Source: Alcanivoracaceae bacterium (GTDB taxonomy: Bacteria > Pseudomonadota > Gammaproteobacteria > Pseudomonadales > Alcanivoracaceae). From it: a DNA stretch of 64,000 nt. The stretch covers positions 330,133-394,132 of the forward strand of contig JARGOL010000002.1 in the NCBI GenBank assembly GCA_029212745.1. Direction: 5' to 3'. Under the pieces are notes generated by a model that was not told the origin of the DNA, made no database searches, and worked only from the letters and a program-made list of their open reading frames with translations. Each line of letters starts with the position of its first letter. The first letter of the stretch is position 1. Both the position numbers and the translations under genes were made by a program. Of the stretch, positions 15,733 through 30,047 are shown piece after piece.

Positions 15733-16302
15733 TTATTTCTTGGCTGCGGCCTTTTTCCTGGCAGCTTTCTTCTTCGGCGCTGCTTTTTTCTTGGCGGCCT
15801 TTTTCTTGGCAGCCTTCTTCTTCGGTGCGGCCTTCTTCTTGGCTGCCTTCTTCTTGGCGGCCTTCTTGGCCGGCTTGACCTTGGCCTCTATTTCGCTGGC
15901 ACGCTTTTCCAGGTCTCGCTCGTACTCGCCGATCACGCGGGCCAGGCTGTGGGCGCGCTTGGCGGTGGCCTTGAGCACCTTGACCTCGGCCTCGAGCAGG
16001 CGCTTGCGCGTTTCCGACTCGTTGACACGCTTGCGTGCATCGTTGCTGGCCTTGCGGGCGCGCTGGATCTGGCGCTTCAGGGCTGCGTTGGCCTTGTCGC
16101 GGTATTCTTCCTGCAGGGATTCCAGCTTGTTGATGTTGTCGCGCTGGCGCTCAACTTCCACATTGACCCGCTCGCGAGCCTTATCAAGCTGTTTTTCAAG
16201 GGAGGCAATCTGCTTCTCGCGCTCCTTGTCAAAACGTTCTGCAAGCTTGCGGATTTCGGTCTGCAGCTGGCTTACACGGTCTTTCACTTTTTTTGCCGCC
16301 AT
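15733..16302 (-). CDS. Lys/Ala-rich histone H1-like (AlgP-type) DNA-binding protein
   Basis: A 189-residue protein in two parts. The N-terminal 135 residues form a long charged coiled coil (KEREKQIASLEKQLDKARER and similar). The tail from about 142 is almost wholly Lys, Ala and Pro, built on AAKKK and AAPKKK units. This is the layout of AlgP/H1-like nucleoid proteins of Pseudomonas relatives, whose basic tails bind DNA. I start at the ATG at 16302, with a GGGAG ribosome site; a longer frame to 16458 would add an implausible leader. Confidence 0.8.
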   Translation of the reverse strand: MAAKKVKDRVSQLQTEIRKLAERFDKEREKQIASLEKQLDKARERVNVEVERQRDNINKLESLQEEYRDKANAALKRQIQRARKASNDARKRVNESETRKRLLEAEVKVLKATAKRAHSLARVIGEYERDLEKRASEIEAKVKPAKKAAKKKAAKKKAAPKKKAAKKKAAKKKAAPKKKAARKKAAAKK

Positions 16303-16421
16303 GAATAACTCCCTTTCCCCTAGGTTGCTGGAGGTTCCGCCGTTACTATAGTACGACGTGACAGGGTGAGAATAGTGCATTTTCTCACCAGTTGGGAAAC
16401 AGAATTTCCAGGGTGTCGGAC

Positions 16422-17336
16422 ATGCCGGTAACTTTTGATGGCAAGTTGGTGGTGGCAATCAGCTCACGCGCGCTGTTCGATCTGCAGGAGAGCCACCATA
16501 TTTTCGAAACGCAGGGGCTCGAGGCCTACCAGGCTTACCAGGTGGCGCATGAGGATGAACCCCTGCAACCGGGTGACGCGTTCCCTCTGGTGCGAAAGCT
16601 TCTCAACCTGAACAACCTGATGCCCGGAGAGCCGCGCGTAGAGGTGATCCTGCTGTCCAGGAACAGCTCGGATACCGGCCTTCGTGTATTCAACTCCATT
16701 GCCCACTATGACCTGCCCATCACCCGGGCGGCCTTTGCCGGGGGAAACAGTCCACACCGTTATGTGTCTGCGTTTGGTGCCGACCTGTTTCTTTCCACCC
16801 ATCCGGAAGATGTTCGCCAGGCACTGCAGGCAGGGTTCGCGGCGGCCACCATCCTCTCCGCCGGTCGTGCACCGGAACGCGAGGAGCTGCGTATCGCCTT
16901 TGACGGCGACGCGGTCCTGTTTTCGGACGAGTCTGAACGTATTTTCCAGCAGGATGGCCTGCAGGCATTTACCGAGAATGAGCGTCGCGCTGCACGCCAG
17001 CCCCTGCCGGGCGGGCCCTTCAAGGCTTTCCTGGCCGCCCTGCACCAGTTGCAGGCGGAATTCCCGGAAGATCGTTGCCCGATTCGGACGGCCCTGGTGA
17101 CGGCCCGCTCGGCGCCGGCCCATGAGCGGGTGGTGCGCACCCTGCGATCGTGGAATGTCCGCATTGACGAGTGCCTGTTCCTGGGCGGGCTGGCCAAGGG
17201 CGAATTCCTGCGGGCGTTCGAGGCGGACATGTTCTTCGACGACCAGGAGGGGCATGTGGCCTCTGCCTCGGAGCATGTGGCCGCCGGCCATGTGCCGGCC
17301 GGGGTGGCCAATGATGGCGCCGGTGGTGGCAGCTAG
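16422..17336 (+). CDS. 5'-nucleotidase (cN-I-like family)
   Basis: A 304-residue protein of the bacterial 5'-nucleotidase family related to cytosolic cN-I. It has LLSRNSSDTGLRVFNSI, FGADLFLSTHPEDV, AFDGDAVLFSDESERIF (HAD-type acidic loop) and MFFDDQEGH near the C-terminus. It should dephosphorylate nucleoside monophosphates in the cytoplasm. I choose the ATG at 16422 over an upstream TTG because MPVTFDGKLVVAI begins the first conserved strand. It diverges from the Lys-rich gene and precedes cysB. Confidence 0.85.
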   Translation: MPVTFDGKLVVAISSRALFDLQESHHIFETQGLEAYQAYQVAHEDEPLQPGDAFPLVRKLLNLNNLMPGEPRVEVILLSRNSSDTGLRVFNSIAHYDLPITRAAFAGGNSPHRYVSAFGADLFLSTHPEDVRQALQAGFAAATILSAGRAPEREELRIAFDGDAVLFSDESERIFQQDGLQAFTENERRAARQPLPGGPFKAFLAALHQLQAEFPEDRCPIRTALVTARSAPAHERVVRTLRSWNVRIDECLFLGGLAKGEFLRAFEADMFFDDQEGHVASASEHVAAGHVPAGVANDGAGGGS

Positions 17337-19624: not shown

Positions 19625-22600
19625 TCATTCCGCCGTTACACGGGGCCGTTCGTCATCGCGCCAGTGGCGCAGGCTGTTCTGGTCAAACTTGATGCGGAAG
19701 TCCAGTACCACCCCCGCAACCCTGCTGTTGGCCTGGTCGAAGTCGGCGTCGTAGAAGCCGCGGAAGTTGTAACCCAGGCTGATCCATACATCCCGCACCG
19801 GGGAAACACCTACCATGACACCGTAGCTGTCATCACTGACGTTGCTGCGGTGTGAGGTCAGCAGGCTGGCCCGCGCCCCGATATCCCAGTGACGGCCGAT
19901 ATGGTAACGGTACTCGCCGGACACCAGGTCCGAGTAGCCACTGTAGCTGTCATCGCGGATGGCTTCCCGCACGTAACGGGCACCGTACATCAATGCCAGC
20001 TGGTGGTAATCGTTGGCAGAGAAGTTGCCGGTGAGATTGTTGACCAGTCGCTGTCCGTGTCGGCTGCCGAAGTCATCGTCCAGTCCGTCCAGTACCAGGC
20101 GGGTGCGATTCAGCATCCACCAGGGACTGGCGTCGGGGCGATGGGAAAGGCTCAGCTCCAGTGCCGTTTCCCATTCATCCGCGCCGCCGTGCAGCTTTTC
20201 ATCCCGGTGGGACAGGCGGCCAATAACGGTATTGGCGCCATCAAGGCGGTGGTGGAGGGCGCTCAGCAGGTTCCACTTGTCACTGATATCCGACTGGCGG
20301 TTCTCGATCCGGCCATTCCATTGCCAGACGCTGTCACGGTAACCAAGGCCGGCGGCCAGGGCTGTGTAGTCCTGCGAATCCGTGCCACTGGCGGGGTCGC
20401 GCCGGTCATCATCAAATCCCGGGTTACGTGTGCCGTCATGCAGCGTCTGGGCGCGGTCCATGGCCAGGTCAGCGCTCCAGCGCGCACTCAGTTGCAGGCG
20501 CTGGTACAGGCCGGCATGGCTGAACAGACGCGGGCCAAACTCGTCCTCGCTATGACCCACGTCTGACACCAGTGTGCCGCCTTTCCATGGCGTGATACGT
20601 GAGCCGACACGGCTTTCCAGGGCCCGGTATTCTTCGCCCCAGGCCAGTTCCTGGCTGGCGAACAGTGTGGCAATGGCATTGACGCGGTAATCGGCGCCCA
20701 GCGTCAGTTTGTTGGGATAGTCGTTGTTGCGCGCTTCGCCGCCTATAGCGGTTTCGCCGCTGGCGCGCAGTGTTACCCGCTTGTCGAGGAAAGACTGGCT
20801 GATGCCGGCCAGGGCGAGGTCCGAGTCATATTGCTCGGCACCAATCTGGTCCCGTGCGGTGCGCGCGCCACCCCATACCTTCAAGGTATCGCGGTGGTAA
20901 TTGAGCCGGCCTTCGACACTGTCTCTTTGCTGGTCAGCGCCCAGCAGTGTCTGGCGGCGGGCCTCTGATTCCACGGTGTAGTGTTCATGGATACGATAGC
21001 GCACTTCACCGCTGACCTGGCGGACACCGCTTTCACTGGCGGCCTGCTGGCCGATGCCGAAGTCAGCATCCTGCTGTTCGACACGCACGCGTCCGTCCAG
21101 ACGGCTGGACTGATAGAGGTATTCGCCCAACCATGCGTTACCGTCCACATCCGTGGTGGCATCTTCCTGGCGCTCGGTGCCAGCCATTTCTACACGCACT
21201 TCGTGGTTGTCATCCGGCTTCCAGGTGAGGTCGATGCCCTGCAGGTCTGCCTCACGACCTTCGGTGCCCTCGTGGATGGCCGTGACGCCAAGCTCCAGCG
21301 TTTTGCCGCTGTCGTGAATGGCGACGCGGCCGCCGCCACTGGTGTTCTCGCGCCCGTTGTCGAGTTCGTACTCGACAACAATGAAGACCGGATTGAAATC
21401 ACCATCCTGTGACAGCACAGGCTCACGGAAGAACAGGGTGCCGTCCGTATAGTCGATGCTGTAATCCAGGTAGCGGGCCCGGGATTCGGTCTTGACCAGC
21501 GTATTGTTGAAACGATCACGGACTTCAATGCGCACGGTTTCGCTGCCGGGCACGATATCACGGTCGCCCAGGCGGTAGAGGCCGCTGGTGCCGTCACCGC
21601 GAATGTCCCGGCGCACGTAAGCTTGTGCGGTCTGTGCTGCAAACAGGCTGGCACTGATGTTGTCCTCACGCAGCTCAGTCTTGAAGCCTGTCAGGGTACG
21701 CTGATACCGCGACAGTTCTGTAACGGTGAGGTCGGTGTCGTAGTCGCCAAACAGGGCATAAAAGTTGTCGCGTTCGATACGCAAGTACAGCTTCTCGCTG
21801 CTCGCGGCTTCCTGCTGGCGCTGTGCACTGTCACCATACAAGACATACCACTGGTTGGGGTCGAACTGCCCACCGAGTGGCGCATCATCCTCTTCCCGGC
21901 GTGAGTCATAGGCCATGGTCAGGAGCCATTCACCCTTTATCCGGCCACGGGCAAAAAATGCCGCTTCGCCATCGGTATAAGTGTCTTCCTCGGCGTCCGG
22001 CAGGGCACTGATGTTGTCCTCAAGCGTGGAGTGGCCGATGCTGCCCCTGGCGAAGCCCACCATGATCCAGTCGCGCAGGGCGGGCTTTACCTGTACTTCC
22101 AGCGTGTCCGAGGCAACATCGTCGTTGGCGCCAAGCTGGATGCGGTAAGTGCCGGCCGTGGCGACTGGCTCAAACCAGGCCACGCCGTCACTGTCGACCT
22201 GCACCACTGCACGTTGCGGGCTCAGGTCATCAGCCCTGCCTGCTATGCTCATGGGGGTAAGATCACCGTTCAGCAGGCGCAGTTCTACACGCGACTGTAT
22301 CTCCCGACCAGACATGTCCTCGATGGTCAGCGGCAGGCGGATGGGTGTCTTGCCGTCGGCAACATTCTCCACCGGTGTGGCGGCGCGGATGCGCTTGATG
22401 TCACTGGTGCGCGTCAGCGTGATGGCGCGACTGAAACGGGTGTTCCCGAACGGGCCGATGCCCTGCAGCTCCAATTGGTAGTCGCCGGTGTCAGGCAGTT
22501 CCAGGCCAAGCCAGGTGTAGTGGATCTGGCCCGCGTCCTTGTCCGGGATCTTCATGCCCAGGCGTTCAGCGGGCACTTCGTTACCGTTCAGCAGTAACCG

Positions 22601-25042
22601 GGGCTGCAGGCGCTCATCCAGGGTGCCGGTGACGCTGACCACGGGAATGCTGATATGCATGCCGTCAGACAGGTTGCGGAAGCCCGGCCCGGTATCCTGC
22701 ATGTTCGTGCTGGCCCGGGAGCCGGCGCGGTCAATGCCGCTGGCACCATTGACGACGGTGAGCTGGGCGTCACGAACGCGTTCGCGGGTGCGGATGGTGA
22801 TCTCCACCCGGCGATTCAGGGCACGTCCCTTTTCGGTATCGTTGCTGGCAATCGGTTCGCGCTGTCCACGTCCGCTGACGCGAAGGGCATCGGGGGGAAG
22901 ATCCAGGTACGTATTCAGTGCATTCGCCACCGACTGGGCGCGTGCTACGGCCAGCGTTTCGTTGTCATTGATAAGCCGGCCTTCGCGCCGGCGAACACGG
23001 CGTGAGTCCGTGTGCCCGACAATATCCAGTTCCACTGCCTGGAATGATTCAAGGAAACGTGCGGCCTCTCGAATGACCATCAGGTCGTTACTATTCAGCG
23101 CGGCGGACATGCTGGCGAATGTGGGACGCAGTGTCAGCGTGGCCTCATGCATTTCTGCGCTGACAAGCCCGAGTTCGTTCACGGATTGCACCGTGTGAAC
23201 ATCGCCGGCGGGTGTAATGCCTGACGTACGTACCAGTACCGTCTTGCGGTTGGCGCCACTGGCATTCGGGTCGAGCCGCAGGGACAGTGCCACTTCAGAA
23301 GCCCAGTAGCGGCCTTTCGGCTTCAGTGTCAGCCGATAGAAATTGTCGCTGTGGACAGCATCGCCGATCTCCCGGCCATCAAGCGCAGCGCTGCCGGGCA
23401 CCGGTGTCAGGGTGTCCGGGAGGAAAAAGTCCACGGTGACAGTCTTGAACTCGGTGTCGCCGTTACCCAGCGGCAGGCGTATCCGTACTTCGCCGTTTTC
23501 GATATCACTGAACAGCTGCTGCTGTATGTGTGATGTCACTTCCGGTTTCTCTTCCAGATAGAACGTCTCCCGCCACAGTGTTCCCCCCTGGAGGTCGACG
23601 AAGCGGGAGAGTGTATTGCCGGCGCTGCGCGAGTGGTCTGCGCATTGGCGTACCGTGTAGCGTGGGCCGAGCGAATCACTATCAAGCTGGAGCACATGGG
23701 TGCCGGGTTTGATGCCTTCCAGGTGCCATCGGCCCTGGTCATCGGTAATCACCGAGCTGCCATCTTCCAGATACAGGCGTGCGCCAGCCATACCGGCGCC
23801 AGCGCGGTCGCCGCACTGGCCGATGACGACCCGGCCCATGAGGAAAGCGCGGTCATTCAGGAATGCCTGCTCGACCGTTACGATGGCCTGCGCCGTGTTT
23901 GACGTAACGCCACCGTTGCTGGAGGCAACGGCTGTGTTGATGGCCTTGCCTGGCTGCGCCTGTACGGTGGCCTCGGCGACGTATTCGATGATGGCCTTTT
24001 CGCCAGCGGCGAGATTGCCTACGGGTACACTGACGCGCTTTTGCGTCAGCGCTGTGGGCTGCAGCGGTGTGCCATTGCGACGGATGGACTCCGCCTGGAT
24101 GCGGAACCCTGTCGGCAGAACGTCATCCAGTGAAATGCCTGTCAGGTCTGCGCTGCCGCGGTTGGCCACAAGGATGCGGTAACTGACCAGTTCACCCTGG
24201 CTGACGGTGTCGCGCAGTGCCTGCTTGGAGACGAACAGGGCGCCGGTGCCGGGTGCAGCGGCGGCACCGATTCGCGCCTGCTTGGAGCCCTGCTGGGCAT
24301 CGAATGCGGCAAGCGCCACGTAGTAGGGCGCCTGCGTCGTCAGCTGGTCATCCACATCGCCATAGTTCTGGTAGTTGATCTGGATGGTGCTGTTGGCCGG
24401 TATCGGCAGGCTGCCACCGTTTTGCAGGTAGCCGACGAAGGTGTTGCTGCCGGACGTGGTTTCTACCAGCGCAATCAGGTAATCGCTGGTAACGCCGGCG
24501 CTGGTGATGCTGGCACTGACGCCCACAATGCGGCGCCCGTCCGGTCGCGTGCCGAAAGCAGAGGCGGGAAGCTGCGGTTGTTCCAGAACAAGGAACAGTG
24601 CCTCGCCAGCAGAAAAATCGTTACTGGGTGTCAAGGTCACAAGCTGGTCGATGGCAATGGCAACGCCCTGCGCATCCGTGGGCGCGGGCAGGGCGCCGAG
24701 GATGGTCGGTGTCGTGCCACCAAGGCTGTCGGCGCTTGCGAAGTGGCTGCCATGCACGTTCAGTGCGGTTGTGCCACTGGGATCATATCGATAGAAACGC
24801 AGGTTTTCGTACCGCGTAACCAGCACGTTTGATTGGATGCTGCCGCCATTCCAGTTGAAGGTGGCGGGCGGCTGGATGATTTCGTAGGCTGCGCGGGCTG
24901 GCCCGGGCAGGGTCATGGCGGCCGCAAGAGCCAGCATCATGACAACATAAACGCTGACAGCATGACGCATACGCGCAAGGCATCCCACCGACGACCTGTC
25001 GGTGTTTTGCTGCGTGCGTGCGCGTGCCAGCCAGGTACTCAT
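19625..25042 (-). CDS. Giant outer-membrane protein: DUF11 + carboxypeptidase-regulatory-like + OmpA-like + large beta-barrel
   Basis: An 1805-residue protein. A signal peptide with a long N-region ends near residue 52 (GPARAAYE). Then come: an unrecognised beta-rich domain (about 53-265); a DUF11 repeat (about 270-393, with ALFVSKQALRDTVSQGELVS); a carboxypeptidase-regulatory/SpaA-like domain (about 400-455, ITDDQGRWHLEGIKPGTHVL); a beta domain; an OmpA-like peptidoglycan-binding domain (about 627-751, DIVGHTDSRR and ARAQSVANAL); one or two Ig-like domains; and about 800 residues of alternating amphipathic strands with aromatic ends, read as an outer-membrane barrel. The OmpA module precedes the barrel, the reverse of OmpA itself. 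A 15-residue charged tail follows the last strand. The ATG overlaps the preceding stop (TGATG). An internal ATG at 24970 would give a normal signal peptide. The exact role is unknown. Confidence 0.85.
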   Translation of the reverse strand: MSTWLARARTQQNTDRSSVGCLARMRHAVSVYVVMMLALAAAMTLPGPARAAYEIIQPPATFNWNGGSIQSNVLVTRYENLRFYRYDPSGTTALNVHGSHFASADSLGGTTPTILGALPAPTDAQGVAIAIDQLVTLTPSNDFSAGEALFLVLEQPQLPASAFGTRPDGRRIVGVSASITSAGVTSDYLIALVETTSGSNTFVGYLQNGGSLPIPANSTIQINYQNYGDVDDQLTTQAPYYVALAAFDAQQGSKQARIGAAAAPGTGALFVSKQALRDTVSQGELVSYRILVANRGSADLTGISLDDVLPTGFRIQAESIRRNGTPLQPTALTQKRVSVPVGNLAAGEKAIIEYVAEATVQAQPGKAINTAVASSNGGVTSNTAQAIVTVEQAFLNDRAFLMGRVVIGQCGDRAGAGMAGARLYLEDGSSVITDDQGRWHLEGIKPGTHVLQLDSDSLGPRYTVRQCADHSRSAGNTLSRFVDLQGGTLWRETFYLEEKPEVTSHIQQQLFSDIENGEVRIRLPLGNGDTEFKTVTVDFFLPDTLTPVPGSAALDGREIGDAVHSDNFYRLTLKPKGRYWASEVALSLRLDPNASGANRKTVLVRTSGITPAGDVHTVQSVNELGLVSAEMHEATLTLRPTFASMSAALNSNDLMVIREAARFLESFQAVELDIVGHTDSRRVRRREGRLINDNETLAVARAQSVANALNTYLDLPPDALRVSGRGQREPIASNDTEKGRALNRRVEITIRTRERVRDAQLTVVNGASGIDRAGSRASTNMQDTGPGFRNLSDGMHISIPVVSVTGTLDERLQPRLLLNGNEVPAERLGMKIPDKDAGQIHYTWLGLELPDTGDYQLELQGIGPFGNTRFSRAITLTRTSDIKRIRAATPVENVADGKTPIRLPLTIEDMSGREIQSRVELRLLNGDLTPMSIAGRADDLSPQRAVVQVDSDGVAWFEPVATAGTYRIQLGANDDVASDTLEVQVKPALRDWIMVGFARGSIGHSTLEDNISALPDAEEDTYTDGEAAFFARGRIKGEWLLTMAYDSRREEDDAPLGGQFDPNQWYVLYGDSAQRQQEAASSEKLYLRIERDNFYALFGDYDTDLTVTELSRYQRTLTGFKTELREDNISASLFAAQTAQAYVRRDIRGDGTSGLYRLGDRDIVPGSETVRIEVRDRFNNTLVKTESRARYLDYSIDYTDGTLFFREPVLSQDGDFNPVFIVVEYELDNGRENTSGGGRVAIHDSGKTLELGVTAIHEGTEGREADLQGIDLTWKPDDNHEVRVEMAGTERQEDATTDVDGNAWLGEYLYQSSRLDGRVRVEQQDADFGIGQQAASESGVRQVSGEVRYRIHEHYTVESEARRQTLLGADQQRDSVEGRLNYHRDTLKVWGGARTARDQIGAEQYDSDLALAGISQSFLDKRVTLRASGETAIGGEARNNDYPNKLTLGADYRVNAIATLFASQELAWGEEYRALESRVGSRITPWKGGTLVSDVGHSEDEFGPRLFSHAGLYQRLQLSARWSADLAMDRAQTLHDGTRNPGFDDDRRDPASGTDSQDYTALAAGLGYRDSVWQWNGRIENRQSDISDKWNLLSALHHRLDGANTVIGRLSHRDEKLHGGADEWETALELSLSHRPDASPWWMLNRTRLVLDGLDDDFGSRHGQRLVNNLTGNFSANDYHQLALMYGARYVREAIRDDSYSGYSDLVSGEYRYHIGRHWDIGARASLLTSHRSNVSDDSYGVMVGVSPVRDVWISLGYNFRGFYDADFDQANSRVAGVVLDFRIKFDQNSLRHWRDDERPRVTAE

Positions 25043-26187
25043 CAGTCCACAGTCACCTGGAACACCACGATGGCCGTTTCACCATCGGCAATGACGCCTG
25101 CAGCGCCAGAGGGGCTGTTAATCTGTAGTCCACCCTCGTCGAGGGGGAATGGTGACGTGCCCGCATCGGCCACGGGATTGCCATTCATCGTCGTGCTGTT
25201 GGCCACGTATTCGACAAATACGGGAATGGAATCTTCCAGTACTGCGCCTGTGAGCGTGCTGCCGGGGTTGCCCGATACGGTGAGCCTGTATTCCAGCAGT
25301 TCGCCGCTGTAGGCGCTGACGCCAGCGCTGGCAAAGGCGCCCCCATCAGTGACGTTGCGTACTTGCTTGATCAGGTTGCCGTCACTGGAAAGCACGGTAG
25401 TGGTGGCTGCGAGACCGTCGTTGTAGGAGATCGCGCTGCCGGAACTGTCGACGGCGCTTGTGGTACCGCTGAGTGACAGTGTGTGAACACCATTGGTGCC
25501 TGCGGCTGCAGGAGTGCCAGCGGTGATTGAAACGGTGACACTGGCCTGCTCGCCAAACTGGGTGCCAGCGGCAACAGTGCCGGCGCCGATGGCGGGTGCT
25601 CCCGCAGTTACTGCGGACAGTGTCAGGCGGGTTGGTGTCTCCGCCGTTGTGGTATTGCCCGTGGTAGAGGCCGGTGTACCAGCACTCAGGGTGGCAATTT
25701 CGTAGACGTAGTCGGAGCCGCCGATGTTGATGACGATCCGGTCCGTAACCATGAGATTGCTCTCTGAGCCAGCCGGTATGAACAGATTACCCGCAGCATC
25801 TGACGCCGCCGACGTGATTGATGCGCCGAGCACAATACTGCTGCTGGATACGCCCAGGCCCGTGGGCGCTGTGACGTTCGCGTCGGCACTGGCTGGCGCC
25901 AGGCTGTAGGTGTCACTGCCATTACTGGTGCTGTGCAGTGTGTAGACATAATTCGCCGTATCCGACGCAAACACGTCGATGTTGGCCTGGTCCACGCTGA
26001 ACACGGGTGCGCTGGGCAGTGTTGCCACCCGCACCTGTACAGCAGCGGTGACCTGGCCACCGGCGAAACTGAGTGTGGCCGCATTGTGAATCGTCGCCCC
26101 GCCGCCCACAGCTGCGTGGGCGCCAGAAACGACAAAAGCGAGACCTGCAAGGCTCGCCAGAATGCGACTCAATATTTTCCTCGACAT
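25042..26187 (-). CDS. Exported DUF11-like surface protein (381 aa), paralogue of the 429-aa neighbour
   Basis: A 381-residue exported protein. The signal peptide ends near residue 25 (VVSGAHAAVGG). The rest is Ser/Thr/Ala/Gly/Val-rich beta structure with no Cys after the leader. It aligns by eye with the 429-residue product: VYTLHSTSNGSDTYSL against VYTITGTANGEDTYDI, QVRNVTDGG against YVRNVTTGA, and similar final strands (IVVFQVTVD against YVLFRVTLD). The C-terminal third resembles a DUF11 domain. A very strong ribosome site (GGAGGAGG) lies just after a hairpin and T tract, and its stop overlaps the giant gene's start. Role unknown; probably a surface subunit or partner of the barrel. Confidence 0.8.
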   Translation of the reverse strand: MSRKILSRILASLAGLAFVVSGAHAAVGGGATIHNAATLSFAGGQVTAAVQVRVATLPSAPVFSVDQANIDVFASDTANYVYTLHSTSNGSDTYSLAPASADANVTAPTGLGVSSSSIVLGASITSAASDAAGNLFIPAGSESNLMVTDRIVINIGGSDYVYEIATLSAGTPASTTGNTTTAETPTRLTLSAVTAGAPAIGAGTVAAGTQFGEQASVTVSITAGTPAAAGTNGVHTLSLSGTTSAVDSSGSAISYNDGLAATTTVLSSDGNLIKQVRNVTDGGAFASAGVSAYSGELLEYRLTVSGNPGSTLTGAVLEDSIPVFVEYVANSTTMNGNPVADAGTSPFPLDEGGLQINSPSGAAGVIADGETAIVVFQVTVD

Positions 26188-26204
26188 ATCAACCTCCTCC
26201 TCGG

Positions 26205-26236
26205 AAAAAGGGGGAGCCGGGAGGACTCCGGCTCCC
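26205..26236 (-). terminator. Intercistronic terminator/attenuator inside the surface operon
   Basis: On the minus strand, 15 bases after the stop of the 429-residue gene, GGGAGCCGG and CCGGCTCCC form a perfect 9-bp GC-rich stem (26228-26236 with 26212-26220) with a 7-base loop. Two bases later comes TTTTT (complement of 26205-26209). This is intrinsic-terminator form, yet the next gene follows at once with a strong ribosome site, so partial read-through is the simplest reading. Confidence 0.75.
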
Positions 26237-26251
26237 TGAACCTGAGGATGA

Positions 26252-27541
26252 TTAGTCGAGTGTTACGCGGAACAGCACGTAGCTGGTCTGGCCACCAGTG
26301 AGTGAACCACCGGTGCCGCTTCCGTCCGGGCCGTCTGTGCCGGCACTGTCGCTACCGCCTGCGCCTGCATAGACGTATACCGTATTGCTGTTCACTTCGG
26401 CGCTATCACCATCACTGCCGCCTTCAGACGGATTGACGAATGCATCGGCACCGACCGGATCCAGCTGGATTGAGCCTGTGACCAGCGAGGTGAAGCCAGG
26501 CACCGGATCGCTGACGATGATGTTATCCGCCTGGGCAAAGCCGGCCGGGTTTTCCACCACCACCAGGTACTCAAGCGTGTCACCAGGGGTTGTGCCGTCT
26601 GCAGAACCCGGCTCTGCACTGACGCCGGAACTGTAGAAGTCGGTGCCTGCGCCGCCGATGGTGACGGTGATGTCAGCGGCGGCCGGGTTGTTGGCGCCGG
26701 TGGTGACATTACGCACGTACTTGGTGACATTGAGTGCCGCCCTAACCACGGTGACCGTCACGCCTGCGCCATCCACGGTGATACCGGGATCATCCTGTGA
26801 CGTGAACGTGGTGGTTGTGACGTGGGTGCCGGAGGTATTACCTGCAGTCACCGAATCGGTGGTGATGGTCACAGTGGCAGTACGCTGCTCGCCGATGATC
26901 AATGCCACGGCATAGGCGTTTGCAGTGCCCTGGTTGCCGCCGGTGAGCGTGTCACTGTCCACGGTGATGGTAACCACGTTCGTGGCTGCACCAGTGGACT
27001 CATCAATGGCCGTCACAGTAACCACTTCAGCGCTGCCGGTGGGGTCAAGGACGATGGTTTCGCCCACGGCAATACCGTTGACGATACCGTCGTTGGTGCC
27101 ATCGAAGGGCACGCTGATGACTGTGTCGCCGGCGGTTACCGCTGTGGCCACGGTGGTACCACCGAGGGTGACGTCAGTATCACCGCCGAAGACCGGTGCG
27201 CCGTCCATGGTGGTGTCCACGGAATTGTTGGTGATGTCATAGGTGTCTTCACCATTGGCGGTACCAGTGATCGTGTACACCAGGTTGTACGTGGTGGACT
27301 CGTTCGCAGGGTTGATGTCAGCCGGAACCGCGACCAGCGGTGCCGTGGGCACCAGGTTGACGGTGAAGGCGACGGATGCGGTGACCGGGGTCTGGGCATT
27401 GCCGCCCGTGTCGTCAAAGCTGACGGTCACCTCGTTGGTGATGGTGGTGTTTGCAGCCGTGCTTGCCAGCAGATTGCCGGACAGGGCGGCCAGGCCACCC
27501 AGTACAGCAACGCCAAGACTGCGCTTGATCAATGTTTTCAT
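26252..27541 (-). CDS. Exported DUF11-like surface protein (429 aa)
   Basis: A 429-residue exported protein. The signal peptide ends near residue 27 (GNLLASTAANTT). The mature chain is acidic and extremely rich in Thr, Val, Gly, Asp and Ala, with no Cys: typical of adhesin or fibre subunits made of Ig-like folds. The N-terminal half has ITNEVTVSFDDTGG and VYTITGTANGEDTYDI; the C-terminal half has a DUF11-like unit (GDTLEYLVVVENPAG, IIVSDPVPGFTSLV). A Gly/Ser/Asp linker precedes the last strand (TSYVLFRVTLD). It is a paralogue of the 381-residue gene downstream. Its codon bias creates long antisense open frames, which I discount. Confidence 0.82.
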   Translation of the reverse strand: MKTLIKRSLGVAVLGGLAALSGNLLASTAANTTITNEVTVSFDDTGGNAQTPVTASVAFTVNLVPTAPLVAVPADINPANESTTYNLVYTITGTANGEDTYDITNNSVDTTMDGAPVFGGDTDVTLGGTTVATAVTAGDTVISVPFDGTNDGIVNGIAVGETIVLDPTGSAEVVTVTAIDESTGAATNVVTITVDSDTLTGGNQGTANAYAVALIIGEQRTATVTITTDSVTAGNTSGTHVTTTTFTSQDDPGITVDGAGVTVTVVRAALNVTKYVRNVTTGANNPAAADITVTIGGAGTDFYSSGVSAEPGSADGTTPGDTLEYLVVVENPAGFAQADNIIVSDPVPGFTSLVTGSIQLDPVGADAFVNPSEGGSDGDSAEVNSNTVYVYAGAGGSDSAGTDGPDGSGTGGSLTGGQTSYVLFRVTLD

Positions 27542-27577
27542 GGTCTTGTCCTCAGGTTCAGTGCCGAAAAGTCATGG

Positions 27578-27611
27578 CTCGCTGGACACGCGGCACCGCC
27601 GTGCCAGCGAG
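27578..27611 (-). repeat. Intercistronic hairpin between the first and second surface genes
   Basis: Arms CTCGCTGG (27578-27585) and CCAGCGAG (27604-27611) pair perfectly. Inside them CGGC (27591-27594) pairs with GCCG (27598-27601). No T-run follows directly on the minus strand, so an mRNA-processing or stability hairpin is more likely than a terminator. It lies in the 90-base gap after the 165-residue gene. Confidence 0.6.
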
Positions 27612-27631
27612 TTGTTGCCTGGTTACGCCGG

Positions 27632-28129
27632 TTATTTCACGGTGGCGCTAAAGCCCACAGCGCCGTCGCTGCCGGCTGGAATTGTCGGGATCACCCAGCG
27701 GATGTTGGTGTAGCGCTCCGGCGGTGCGGCCTGTTCCTTGCCGGTGCCGGTGTCACGCCAGGTGAGAGATGCCGGCTGCTTGTAGGTCTGGCCGCCATCG
27801 ATGGAAAACAGGATCTGCGCACCGTCACCCCAGGCAGAGCCCGCCTGGTACAGCTGGGCGGGGTCAATCGGGTTATCCAGCTTCACGTTTACAGCGGCCT
27901 CGTCGCCGCTGTTGCTGTAGCTGAGGGTGTAGTGAACGGTATCGCCCGGGGCCACGGTGCTGGCCGGCTCCCGGCGGGTGCGGATCTGCCCATTTTCGTC
28001 AGCGGTGCGGATTTCACGCTCCGCGAGGATGGACATGCTCACCTGGGGGGCCGCCAACAGGCCTGATGACAGGCCCAAAAGTCCCATAAAAATCAGGGTA
28101 TTAACGGTATCAAGGTGAATTCTCTTCAT
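27632..28129 (-). CDS. Small exported DUF11-like protein (165 aa), first gene of the surface operon
   Basis: A 165-residue protein. The signal peptide ends near residue 27 (SSGLLAAPQV). One DUF11-like domain follows: PGDTVHYTLSYSNSGDEAAV, then VKLDNPIDPAQLYQAG and SIDGGQTYKQPASLTW, ending in GAVGFSATVK. The same order of motifs forms the last domain of the 503-residue protein upstream, so the two are related. The ATG at 28129 has AGGAG 6 bases upstream; the frame continues further but only through non-coding sequence. Likely periplasmic or surface-exposed. Confidence 0.82.
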   Translation of the reverse strand: MKRIHLDTVNTLIFMGLLGLSSGLLAAPQVSMSILAEREIRTADENGQIRTRREPASTVAPGDTVHYTLSYSNSGDEAAVNVKLDNPIDPAQLYQAGSAWGDGAQILFSIDGGQTYKQPASLTWRDTGTGKEQAAPPERYTNIRWVIPTIPAGSDGAVGFSATVK

Positions 28130-28535
28130 GGCTTTCTCCTTCGGCTGAATACATAGGCAGCTGTGTGCTGCCAGGTCCTGCAGGTAATGACGAAAATTGC
28201 GTGCCAGTAACGGCCCGTCGACCGAATGTGGCGATGGACGGCCGCGAGGCGCGTATGAACGGTAAAAAATGAGGTATGCCAGTGACTTGGCGCGCAGATT
28301 TAACGGTGTCATGATGCGGGTTCGGGCCCTGTCAGTGTGACATGTGTCACGGAATGGCAGTGATTGCCATCACGGTGACATTATCTGTTAGGCCTACAAA
28401 AAAGCTAGTAAAAAAGTGTTTGTTCTGGGGGAATTACTGACTGGCTGGTACCAGAGGCCTGGTGCTTGAATCAGTGACTTAGGGGCAGGTCAGCGCGTCT
28501 GCACATGACAAAAAAGGATGAGTGGCATTCATCTT
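28130..28535. other. 406-base intergenic region upstream of the surface operon
   Basis: This is the longest gene-free stretch in the window. From left to right it holds the 5' leader of the 165-residue gene, two CRP-like palindromes (28336-28374), an AT-rich block (about 28380-28440) with GATAAT on the minus strand (complement of 28380-28385), and the terminator of the 503-residue gene. No coding frame or RNA gene is convincing. Confidence 0.7.
28336..28374. promoter_or_regulatory. Two tandem CRP/Vfr-like palindromes
   Basis: TGTGA-N6-TCACG (28336-28351) and AGTGA-N6-TCACG (28359-28374) each keep the GTGA-N6-TCAC core of CRP-family sites. Their centres are 23 bases apart, roughly two helical turns. 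They lie 207-245 bases upstream of the surface operon's first start codon. An FNR-type protein is a less good fit because the half-sites are GTGAT rather than TTGAT. The transcription start is not obvious. Confidence 0.55.
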
Positions 28536-28538
28536 TTA
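28509..28538 (-). terminator. Probable terminator of the 503-residue gene
   Basis: On the minus strand, GATGA and TCATC pair around a 7-base loop right at the stop codon and are followed by CCTTTTTTG. Outer AAA/TTT pairing lengthens the stem with one bulge. The stem is short, so efficiency may be modest, but it separates the 503-residue gene from the operon behind it. Confidence 0.55.
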
Positions 28539-30047
28539 GCGGAGTACGGTGTCGTACTCCAGCTGGAAGGAGGCGCCGTTGGCGTTCATGGTGCCGGTCA
28601 TTGGCACGCGAAAGTGGGTGACATTGGCGTCATAGCCGGCCGGGGCGCCGCCGCCGCCAGACATGGGGGTGTAAGTGTAGGTGATACCGCCGTCGTCCGA
28701 GTAGGACGGAGTGCCCAGGGTCAGTCCGCTGGGCGTGGCGCCGTCGGTAAAACGGAACGGGGTGGCGGCGCCAAAAGTGTTGATGGCAAACGCCACGAAT
28801 TGGGGCAGCTGGTCTTCAACGGCGACGTTGGTGGCGGCAACTGTGGCGATGTTGCTGATCGACACGGTGAAGCGTACAGCGCTGCCGGGGTCAACGTTGG
28901 CGGACGAAGACACCTTGGTTACAGTCAGCTCGGGCGCCGGCAGCACCTGGACAACGGCGCTGCTGCTGTCATTGCTGGCGTCATTGTCGGCCTCAGCGCT
29001 GGCGCTGATGGTGGCGGTGTTGGTGGTGTTGATGGCCAGTGGCACGTTCAGGGCCAGTGCCGTGATGGTCAGCGTCTCGCTGGTCTGCGCCGGTAGCGAC
29101 GCCAGCTGCCACTGGTCCGGCACCGAGTCCGCATCCGTGTCGACAAAACTGCCCGCAGATACGGTGTGACTGAGGTAGGTGAATTGAGCGGGGAGCTGGT
29201 CATCCACGGTAATACTGCTGAAATCATCGAAGAGAAGGTTTTCCAGCAAGATGGTATAGGTCACTGTATTGCCTGCCTGCACAGTGGCAGCACTGGCACT
29301 CTTGCTGATCGCCATGTCCGGCGGGAAAAGCACTGACGCGCCGCCGGGGCCGCCCATGTTGTCGTCCAGCTGGTTGGGAATATTGGTGCCGTTCGACGAC
29401 GAGATATGAAAACCCACGTTGGCTGGCTGGGACAGGCCCAGTGCTGTCCAGGCAATGGCGATCTCCATTTCGGTGCCGGTGCTGGCGCCGCCCTTGGCCT
29501 TGTACTGCTGCACGCAGCTGTGGTTGAACAACGGACCAGGCATGTCATACCCATCCGCATTGCCGGTGTTCGGGTCTGTGAGCGAGTCGCCGGTGCTGTT
29601 GTTGACCGCATTGTAGCGGCAGATCTCCACCGTGGTGTCGCGGTTACTGCCTTGCCAGGACACGTGCACCACCGGTTCGTTGTCTTCCTGTGTGCTGCTG
29701 TTATTGGTGTCCAGGTAGAACCACCAGTCGGTGGCGTTGCTGAGGCTGGCGTAGCGGCCCACGAACAAATAGATGTTGTTGGTATCCCAGGTGAATGAAA
29801 AGGTCTTCAGGTCACGGCCGGTGCTCTGTACCTGGTAGTCGAGATCGCAGCCGCCGCTGCCCGGGGCGATGGTGCCTTCGCAGTCGGCGCTGAACTGGCC
29901 CGGGTTGGTAAGAATATTGGTCGGCGAGGTCCAGTCACTGATATTCCCGTCGATGGTAATTGTGCGACTGATCAATGCGCCATGGGCGGCACCGAACAGG
30001 GTCAGCAACAGCAGTGCCGTGAGGATCTGGTGTGTCAGGCGCCGCAT
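28536..30047 (-). CDS. Exported protein with N-terminal CBM9-like region and two DUF11 domains (503 aa)
   Basis: A 503-residue exported protein. The signal peptide ends near residue 23 (FGAAHGALIS). The N-terminal region (about 25-235) opens with TITIDGNISDW, a common start of family-9-like carbohydrate-binding domains. It has aromatic strands (TDWWFYLDTNN) and a few Cys that may form disulphides. Two DUF11 domains follow (about 243-375 and 380-503): ISKSASAATVQAGNTVTYT and VTKVSSSANVDPGSAVRFT. The last one is related to the 165-residue protein. It is transcribed separately, between the mdh terminator and its own weak terminator. A ligand-binding surface or fibre-tip role is a guess. Confidence 0.82.
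   Translation of the reverse strand: MRRLTHQILTALLLLTLFGAAHGALISRTITIDGNISDWTSPTNILTNPGQFSADCEGTIAPGSGGCDLDYQVQSTGRDLKTFSFTWDTNNIYLFVGRYASLSNATDWWFYLDTNNSSTQEDNEPVVHVSWQGSNRDTTVEICRYNAVNNSTGDSLTDPNTGNADGYDMPGPLFNHSCVQQYKAKGGASTGTEMEIAIAWTALGLSQPANVGFHISSSNGTNIPNQLDDNMGGPGGASVLFPPDMAISKSASAATVQAGNTVTYTILLENLLFDDFSSITVDDQLPAQFTYLSHTVSAGSFVDTDADSVPDQWQLASLPAQTSETLTITALALNVPLAINTTNTATISASAEADNDASNDSSSAVVQVLPAPELTVTKVSSSANVDPGSAVRFTVSISNIATVAATNVAVEDQLPQFVAFAINTFGAATPFRFTDGATPSGLTLGTPSYSDDGGITYTYTPMSGGGGAPAGYDANVTHFRVPMTGTMNANGASFQLEYDTVLR

Follow-up and report, generated by a model that had tools for sequence, protein, structure and literature searches.

A locus of five genes in the window (the whole 64,000-nucleotide stretch of DNA analysed here) probably, at a probability of roughly 0.6, encodes a surface fibre built by donor-strand complementation and possibly self-locked, which a large barrel exports or anchors. 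Polymerisation and export are inferred, with no experiment behind them. In the mechanism proposed, subunits would join head to tail in the periplasm, the N-terminal hairpin of each one completing the C-terminal DUF11 domain of its neighbour. A Lys and an Asp of the acceptor would there meet an Asn of the donor, and each joint could close as a spontaneous isopeptide bond. Protein p503 would cap the far end as tip, since it can only accept, and p165 would cap donor strands reversibly, in the manner of a chaperone. The barrel would pass or anchor the fibre, with an OmpA domain holding it to the peptidoglycan.

Gene organization and conservation of the locus

An earlier sequence-only reading had listed five minus-strand open reading frames of 503, 165, 429, 381 and 1805 amino acids, and all of them were found where it had placed them and at those lengths (Table 1). 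It had also described the products as exported; each carries a hydrophobic N-terminus of the export type, judged by sequence and without a signal-peptide predictor, so that all five look exported and not cytoplasmic. The genes for p381 and the giant protein overlap (TGATG), 64 nt separate those for p429 and p381, and the start of p165 at 28129 lies behind AGGAG, with the open frame reaching further upstream. The gap between p503 and p165 is of about 400 nt; the promoter scan of the window gave nothing useful on the minus strand, and promoter prediction spoke neither for nor against a separate transcript of p503. This gene is absent from a close relative (L036), and p503-like genes lie upstream of p165 in two other loci (L039 and L046). 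A strong GC-rich hairpin follows p429, and comparable hairpins after a subunit gene in six relatives have z-scores of -2.9 to -5.6 (window, -1.7); the hairpin could serve to raise the amount made of the main subunit. Elsewhere in the window, a 241-aa open reading frame (15733-16458, minus strand) has a Lys/Ala-rich C-terminal repeat (AAKKKAAPKKKAAKK) and presumably resembles histone-like AlgP-type proteins.

Table 1. Positions and properties of the features of the locus in the window.
Feature	Position	Strand	Description
p503, putative tip protein	28536..30047	-	export-type N-terminus; no donor motif
p503 N-terminal domain	29319-29978	-	220 aa, unknown family
p503 complete DUF11	28950-29318	-	domain match
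p503 C-terminal DUF11	28539-28937	-	open at last strand; Lys378 and Asp412
p165, acceptor-only DUF11 protein, cap/chaperone candidate	27632..28129	-	no N-terminal donor strand; family without isopeptide Lys, usually without Asp
p429, main fibre subunit candidate	26252..27541	-	N-terminal donor hairpin; C-terminal DUF11 one strand short (..VLFRVTLD); Lys274, Asp345
p429 donor hairpin, residues 33-62	27356..27445	-	TITNEVTVSF.., Asn36; modelled as last two strands of p165 DUF11
GC-rich hairpin	26212..26236	-	9 bp, then T run; between p429 and p381
p381, second subunit (candidate)	25042..26187	-	donor motif GGGATIHNAATLSF (Asn35); open C-terminal DUF11, Lys274, Asp319, end VVFQVTVD
p381 donor region, residues 30-55	26023..26100	-	carries the donor motif
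Giant outer-membrane protein	19625..25042	-	1805 aa; N-terminal region, complete DUF11, CarboxypepD_reg-like, OmpA, Ig-like domains, C-terminal barrel (predicted)
Giant N-terminal segment	24842..24880	-	site of donor motif in relatives; diverged here (IIQPPATFNWNGG), without Asn
OmpA domain, residues 641-750	22793..23122	-	peptidoglycan-binding type; domain match
Predicted barrel, residues 990-1805	19628..22075	-	about 36 strands; structure model
Conserved insert, residues 1149-1217	21392..21598	-	about 70 residues, short strands; after sixth barrel strand, usher-plug-like placement

Relatives of the giant protein were detected in 18 of 145 sampled genomes of the same order, and a profile of the barrel detected them in 53 genomes out of 369 sampled from the class and in 58 out of 398 from the phylum. 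Named genomes gave no matches when scanned with one full-length protein as query; the scan with a narrower alignment gave 495 relatives, the best 80 of which were used. Among them were records labelled as Gammaproteobacteria, Sphingomonas, Desulfobacterales, Geobacter, Nitrospirae and Myxococcota, many of them metagenome assemblies whose taxon labels are to be treated with care. Cultured carriers of the locus include Desulfatibacillum alkenivorans DSM 16219 and Marinobacterium profundum.

Fifty-eight neighbourhoods were fetched and read together with that of the window. Those with a p165-family gene and at least one DUF11 subunit directly upstream of the barrel gene were filed as type I (38 loci) and the others as type II (21 loci), the filing and the assignment of ORF starts being mechanical. 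None of the 38 type I loci lacks p165 or a DUF11 subunit upstream of the barrel, and a larger protein often comes first. Type II loci mostly have one very large DUF11 chain adjoining the barrel, or a single ORF that encodes both; among the 21, L135 in fact belongs to type I, its p165 gene having been missed by the ORF picker. Seven loci (L051, L104, L105, L117, L118, L122 and L132) showed a barrel gene with a single DUF11 chain of about 3000-4300 aa and no p165, and in another (L125) a single ORF, reported at 11777 aa, encodes both the DUF11 repeats and the barrel. Of the named-genome loci (from the best 80 of 495), 45 had 5 kb or more of upstream sequence, and p165 and DUF11 subunits were present in 43 of these: 42 by the automatic rule and one (L196) with an over-long p165 start; the remaining two are N-masked upstream. 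The co-occurrence is thus conserved, and a wide occurrence of giants without partner genes, which would have spoken against the sequence-only reading, was not seen: in the intact loci read, the giant was never without DUF11 partners.

A DUF11 strand and an isopeptide triad inferred to be divided between neighbours

DUF11 domains were recognised above the Pfam cut-off in p503 and the giant protein and by TIGR01451 in p165 and p381 (also in p503); recognition of that of p429 required a profile built from related subunits. The C-termini of the subunits end at '..F.V.I(D/N)', one strand before a complete CLIPPER (DUF11) domain. In ORFs of up to 1100 aa, 91 matches reached the domain end, and the protein stopped exactly there in 49 cases and within three further residues in 29. 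The missing strand opens the mature N-termini of the subunits, as GTxIxNxATVxY. In single-chain stalks the last strand, which resembles G-T-x-I-x-N-x-A-x-V, comes immediately after the DUF11 end, and the motif score at this place had a median of 2.3 bits, against -3.6 for random windows; based on this, the donor motif was identified as the last DUF11 strand.

The donor motif was scored with a position matrix, leaving one locus out at a time, with a threshold of more than 8 bits. It was present in 36 of 38 barrel-adjoining subunits, all ten other subunits and 29 of 38 type I giants; the contrast sets gave 1/38 (p165), 7/573 (control ORFs) and 3/21 (type II barrels). On sequence grounds, this is the distribution expected of head-to-tail donor-strand complementation, in which the tip accepts, subunits accept and donate, and the giant donates. 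Accordingly, p429 and p381 appear to be the subunits that polymerise, in line with the sequence-only reading, which had taken all three small proteins for probable subunits; p165 has no N-terminal donor and appears instead to be an acceptor-only, cap- or chaperone-like protein. The giant of the window scored 3.8 bits, against the more than 8 bits reached by those 29 of 38, and that of the close relative L036 likewise has no recognisable donor motif; hence the joint at the base remains unexplained in the window genome.

Protein p503 looks like an acceptor-only tip, and its N-terminal domain has no PDB relative by sequence. The first genes of the relatives are variable, and among their products are proteins with a DUF2341, a proprotein-convertase P-domain or an MG2-like domain. 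The donor motif is present in eight smaller first genes and absent from the larger, adhesin-like ones.

The isopeptide bond of DUF11 has been assigned to Lys, Asp and Asn, and the structure 9IFR has been reported (PMC12617251). Of the 69 aligned acceptor domains, 60 have the Lys and 65 have the Asp, and the donor-strand Asn was conserved in 27 of 27 aligned subunits. The triad is therefore divided, with Lys and Asp on the acceptor and Asn on the donor, and its residue types match those of CLIPPER (PMC12617251). Both p429 and p381 have the strand with the Asn at their N-terminus and lack it at their C-terminus, so that the triad does not stand in order within one domain. The bond is predicted; if it forms, it would link neighbouring subunits. 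The p165 family has the aligned Lys in none and the Asp in five of its 38 members. Since p165 could bind a donor but, without Lys, not lock it, a chaperone role is proposed; that p165 binds the donor strand without locking and acts as a chaperone is most likely, albeit an inference. In loci already having a tip, such as that of the window, p165 is an extra acceptor. An orphan gene of the family was also observed (L236, 6338-7117, genome G416), with no barrel detected there, a point against the fibre reading.

Because p429 is in frame with p165, the natural DNA was read through the stops to give one AlphaFold chain. In the resulting AF2 model the N-terminal hairpin of p429 sits in p165, and model residues 25-258 (p165 and the p429 hairpin) superposed on CLIPPER 9IFR with Z 12.2 and an rmsd of 2.2 Å over 120 of 123 residues. 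Only the p165-p429 pair was modelled, as a single chain through the intergenic stretch, and the tandem arrangement favours this pairing; the model is therefore support and not proof. That an incomplete Ig fold is filled by the N-terminal strand of a neighbour is thus a point on which sequence statistics and one model with biased pairing agree, and it has not been shown physically.

Donor and acceptor lie in one polypeptide in p429 and in p381, and each protein might instead close on itself, its own N-terminal strand completing its own C-terminal DUF11 as in a circularly permuted domain; the products would then be monomeric surface proteins and there would be no fibre. The AF2 modelling covered neither p381 nor subunit-subunit pairs and leaves room for this. 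Nevertheless, self-closure would leave the unmatched acceptors of p165 and the tip without a donor, and would also leave over the donors of most type I giants, whose DUF11 is internal; in addition, the read-through model placed the p429 strand into p165 although its own domain was available (the pairing bias applies here too). We thus regard self-closure as quite improbable.

The giant protein and its predicted barrel

The composition proposed for the giant by the sequence-only reading was borne out: it combines DUF11 (residues 270-376) and OmpA (641-744, Pfam) with a CarboxypepD_reg-like domain (408-460, slightly below the Pfam cut-off) and a C-terminal barrel model. No Pfam family, and thus not the usher family PF00577, matched its last approximately 800 residues. 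The model of residues 780-1805 had a mean pLDDT of 83.3 and a pTM of 0.72, and its strand count rests on DSSP alone. Failure of the barrel prediction, which would have told against the reading, did not occur, and ushers were structurally nearest: the six top rows of VIA-align were all FimD (Z 15.6-16.6), the best one with Z 16.6 over 361 residues and an rmsd of 13.2 Å. However, usher matches had high rmsd values (9-17 Å) and Z scores barely above those of porins (up to 15.3), and profile comparison spoke against homology with ushers (probability 1%). The barrel may work like an usher, and it has not been shown to be one. Against PDB sequences its profile gave weak matches only, to glycoside hydrolase accessory domains and similar. 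Matches to ZorB in PADLOC were discarded, being due to the OmpA domain only. This domain is frequent among the giants and occurs threefold in two type II barrels; it is missing from two loci (L100 and L104), and is therefore not essential to the barrel family.

An OmpA domain together with an N-terminal donor strand, as most giants have it, would also suit a protein that is only the base anchor of a real fibre, whose subunits are exported in some other way, for example by type 2 secretion. Such a route is possible because the genome has, away from the locus, a gene for GspD, a marker of that system; anchoring would also fit the huge chains that are the partners in type II. What makes us consider it unlikely is the size of the barrel, well beyond the requirements of an anchor, and its conserved insert placed like an usher plug, the presence of DUF11 partner genes beside it at each intact locus that was read, and the absence of T2SS genes next to the locus. 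By default the domains N-terminal to the barrel, OmpA included, would be periplasmic, and the DUF11 proteins might all stay inside, tying the outer membrane to the peptidoglycan through OmpA; yet the DUF2341, P-domain and MG2-like domains of the first genes and the type II chains of 3000-4300 aa suit the cell surface, and DUF11 is otherwise known mainly from the stalks of surface adhesins (PMC12617251), which renders a periplasmic scaffold very improbable. The idea of a self-contained fibre system with the giant as anchor or exporter is supported by the conserved co-occurrence and the barrel model, with neither fibre nor export shown experimentally.

Relation to known systems and significance

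Among known systems, chaperone-usher pili (FimD/PapC) share with the locus a donor-strand complementation between Ig-like subunits that is only predicted for the locus, a putative acceptor-only tip, a small helper protein and a large barrel in the outer membrane whose conserved insert comes after strand six. They differ in that ushers have 24 strands and no sequence homology to the locus barrel with its approximately 36, and in that the locus has DUF11 subunits and not pilins, an OmpA domain and predicted covalent joints. In reverse of PapD, p165 would offer a groove and not a donor strand; a PapD-type chaperone was not matched among the five products, and no usher was found in the genome. One PapD-like (PapD_N) gene was observed on another contig of this genome (L240, G000:C25:15843-16217).

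DUF11/CLIPPER fibrillar adhesins share with the locus both the domain and its isopeptide residues Lys, Asp and Asn, and the example presented for them also has an OmpA-like anchor (PMC12617251); there, triad and last strand lie within one chain, whereas here they are split between neighbours and a dedicated barrel gene is present. The archaeal threads of Sulfolobus, whose assembly machinery is unknown, also show head-to-tail complementation by N-terminal strands and proposed inter-subunit isopeptide bonds (PMC9715654). Their bonds link an N-terminal amino group with an Asn of the next subunit but one, unlike the link from Lys to the Asn of the next subunit predicted here, and these organisms have no outer membrane. 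In the control genomes, DUF11 matches were also seen in Sulfolobus acidocaldarius, a thread-making organism. The TasA/TapA fibres of Bacillus (PMC10151520) resemble the locus in having a small accessory protein, reported to be a chaperone working through strand complementation, a role also proposed for p165; they differ in being Gram-positive and without an outer-membrane barrel.

The type 9 translocon SprA (6H3I) is likewise a very large single-chain barrel, and its 406 aligned residues were among the longest alignments listed; its Z was only 12.2, among many barrels, with no PDB sequence match of the barrel, and no other type 9 genes were recognised beside the locus. The domain order would be compatible with a type V autotransporter, from which the approximately 36 strands, the mid-protein OmpA domain and the separate subunit genes differ. 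A paper on T11SS was rejected as a description of the barrel, which does not appear in it; DUF11 is mentioned there once, as part of a different set of domains. No description of the system was found in the searchable literature, most subscription journals and bioRxiv being outside its scope.

A broader proposal, for which we put the odds at somewhat less than even, is that of a distinct and widespread pathway comprising a DUF11 donor-strand polymer, split-triad locks, a groove-type chaperone (p165) and a barrel exporter of approximately 36 strands with no relation in sequence to ushers, together with a sister form in which one giant chain replaces the subunits. If true, this would be a new Gram-negative way of building surface fibres, present throughout Pseudomonadota and with records from further phyla. 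It would point to a way in which DUF11 proteins are exported, and its split isopeptide partners would be natural counterparts of the engineered SpyTag/SpyCatcher. A further result is a hypothesis for the function of a family of very large outer-membrane barrels that is absent from Pfam.
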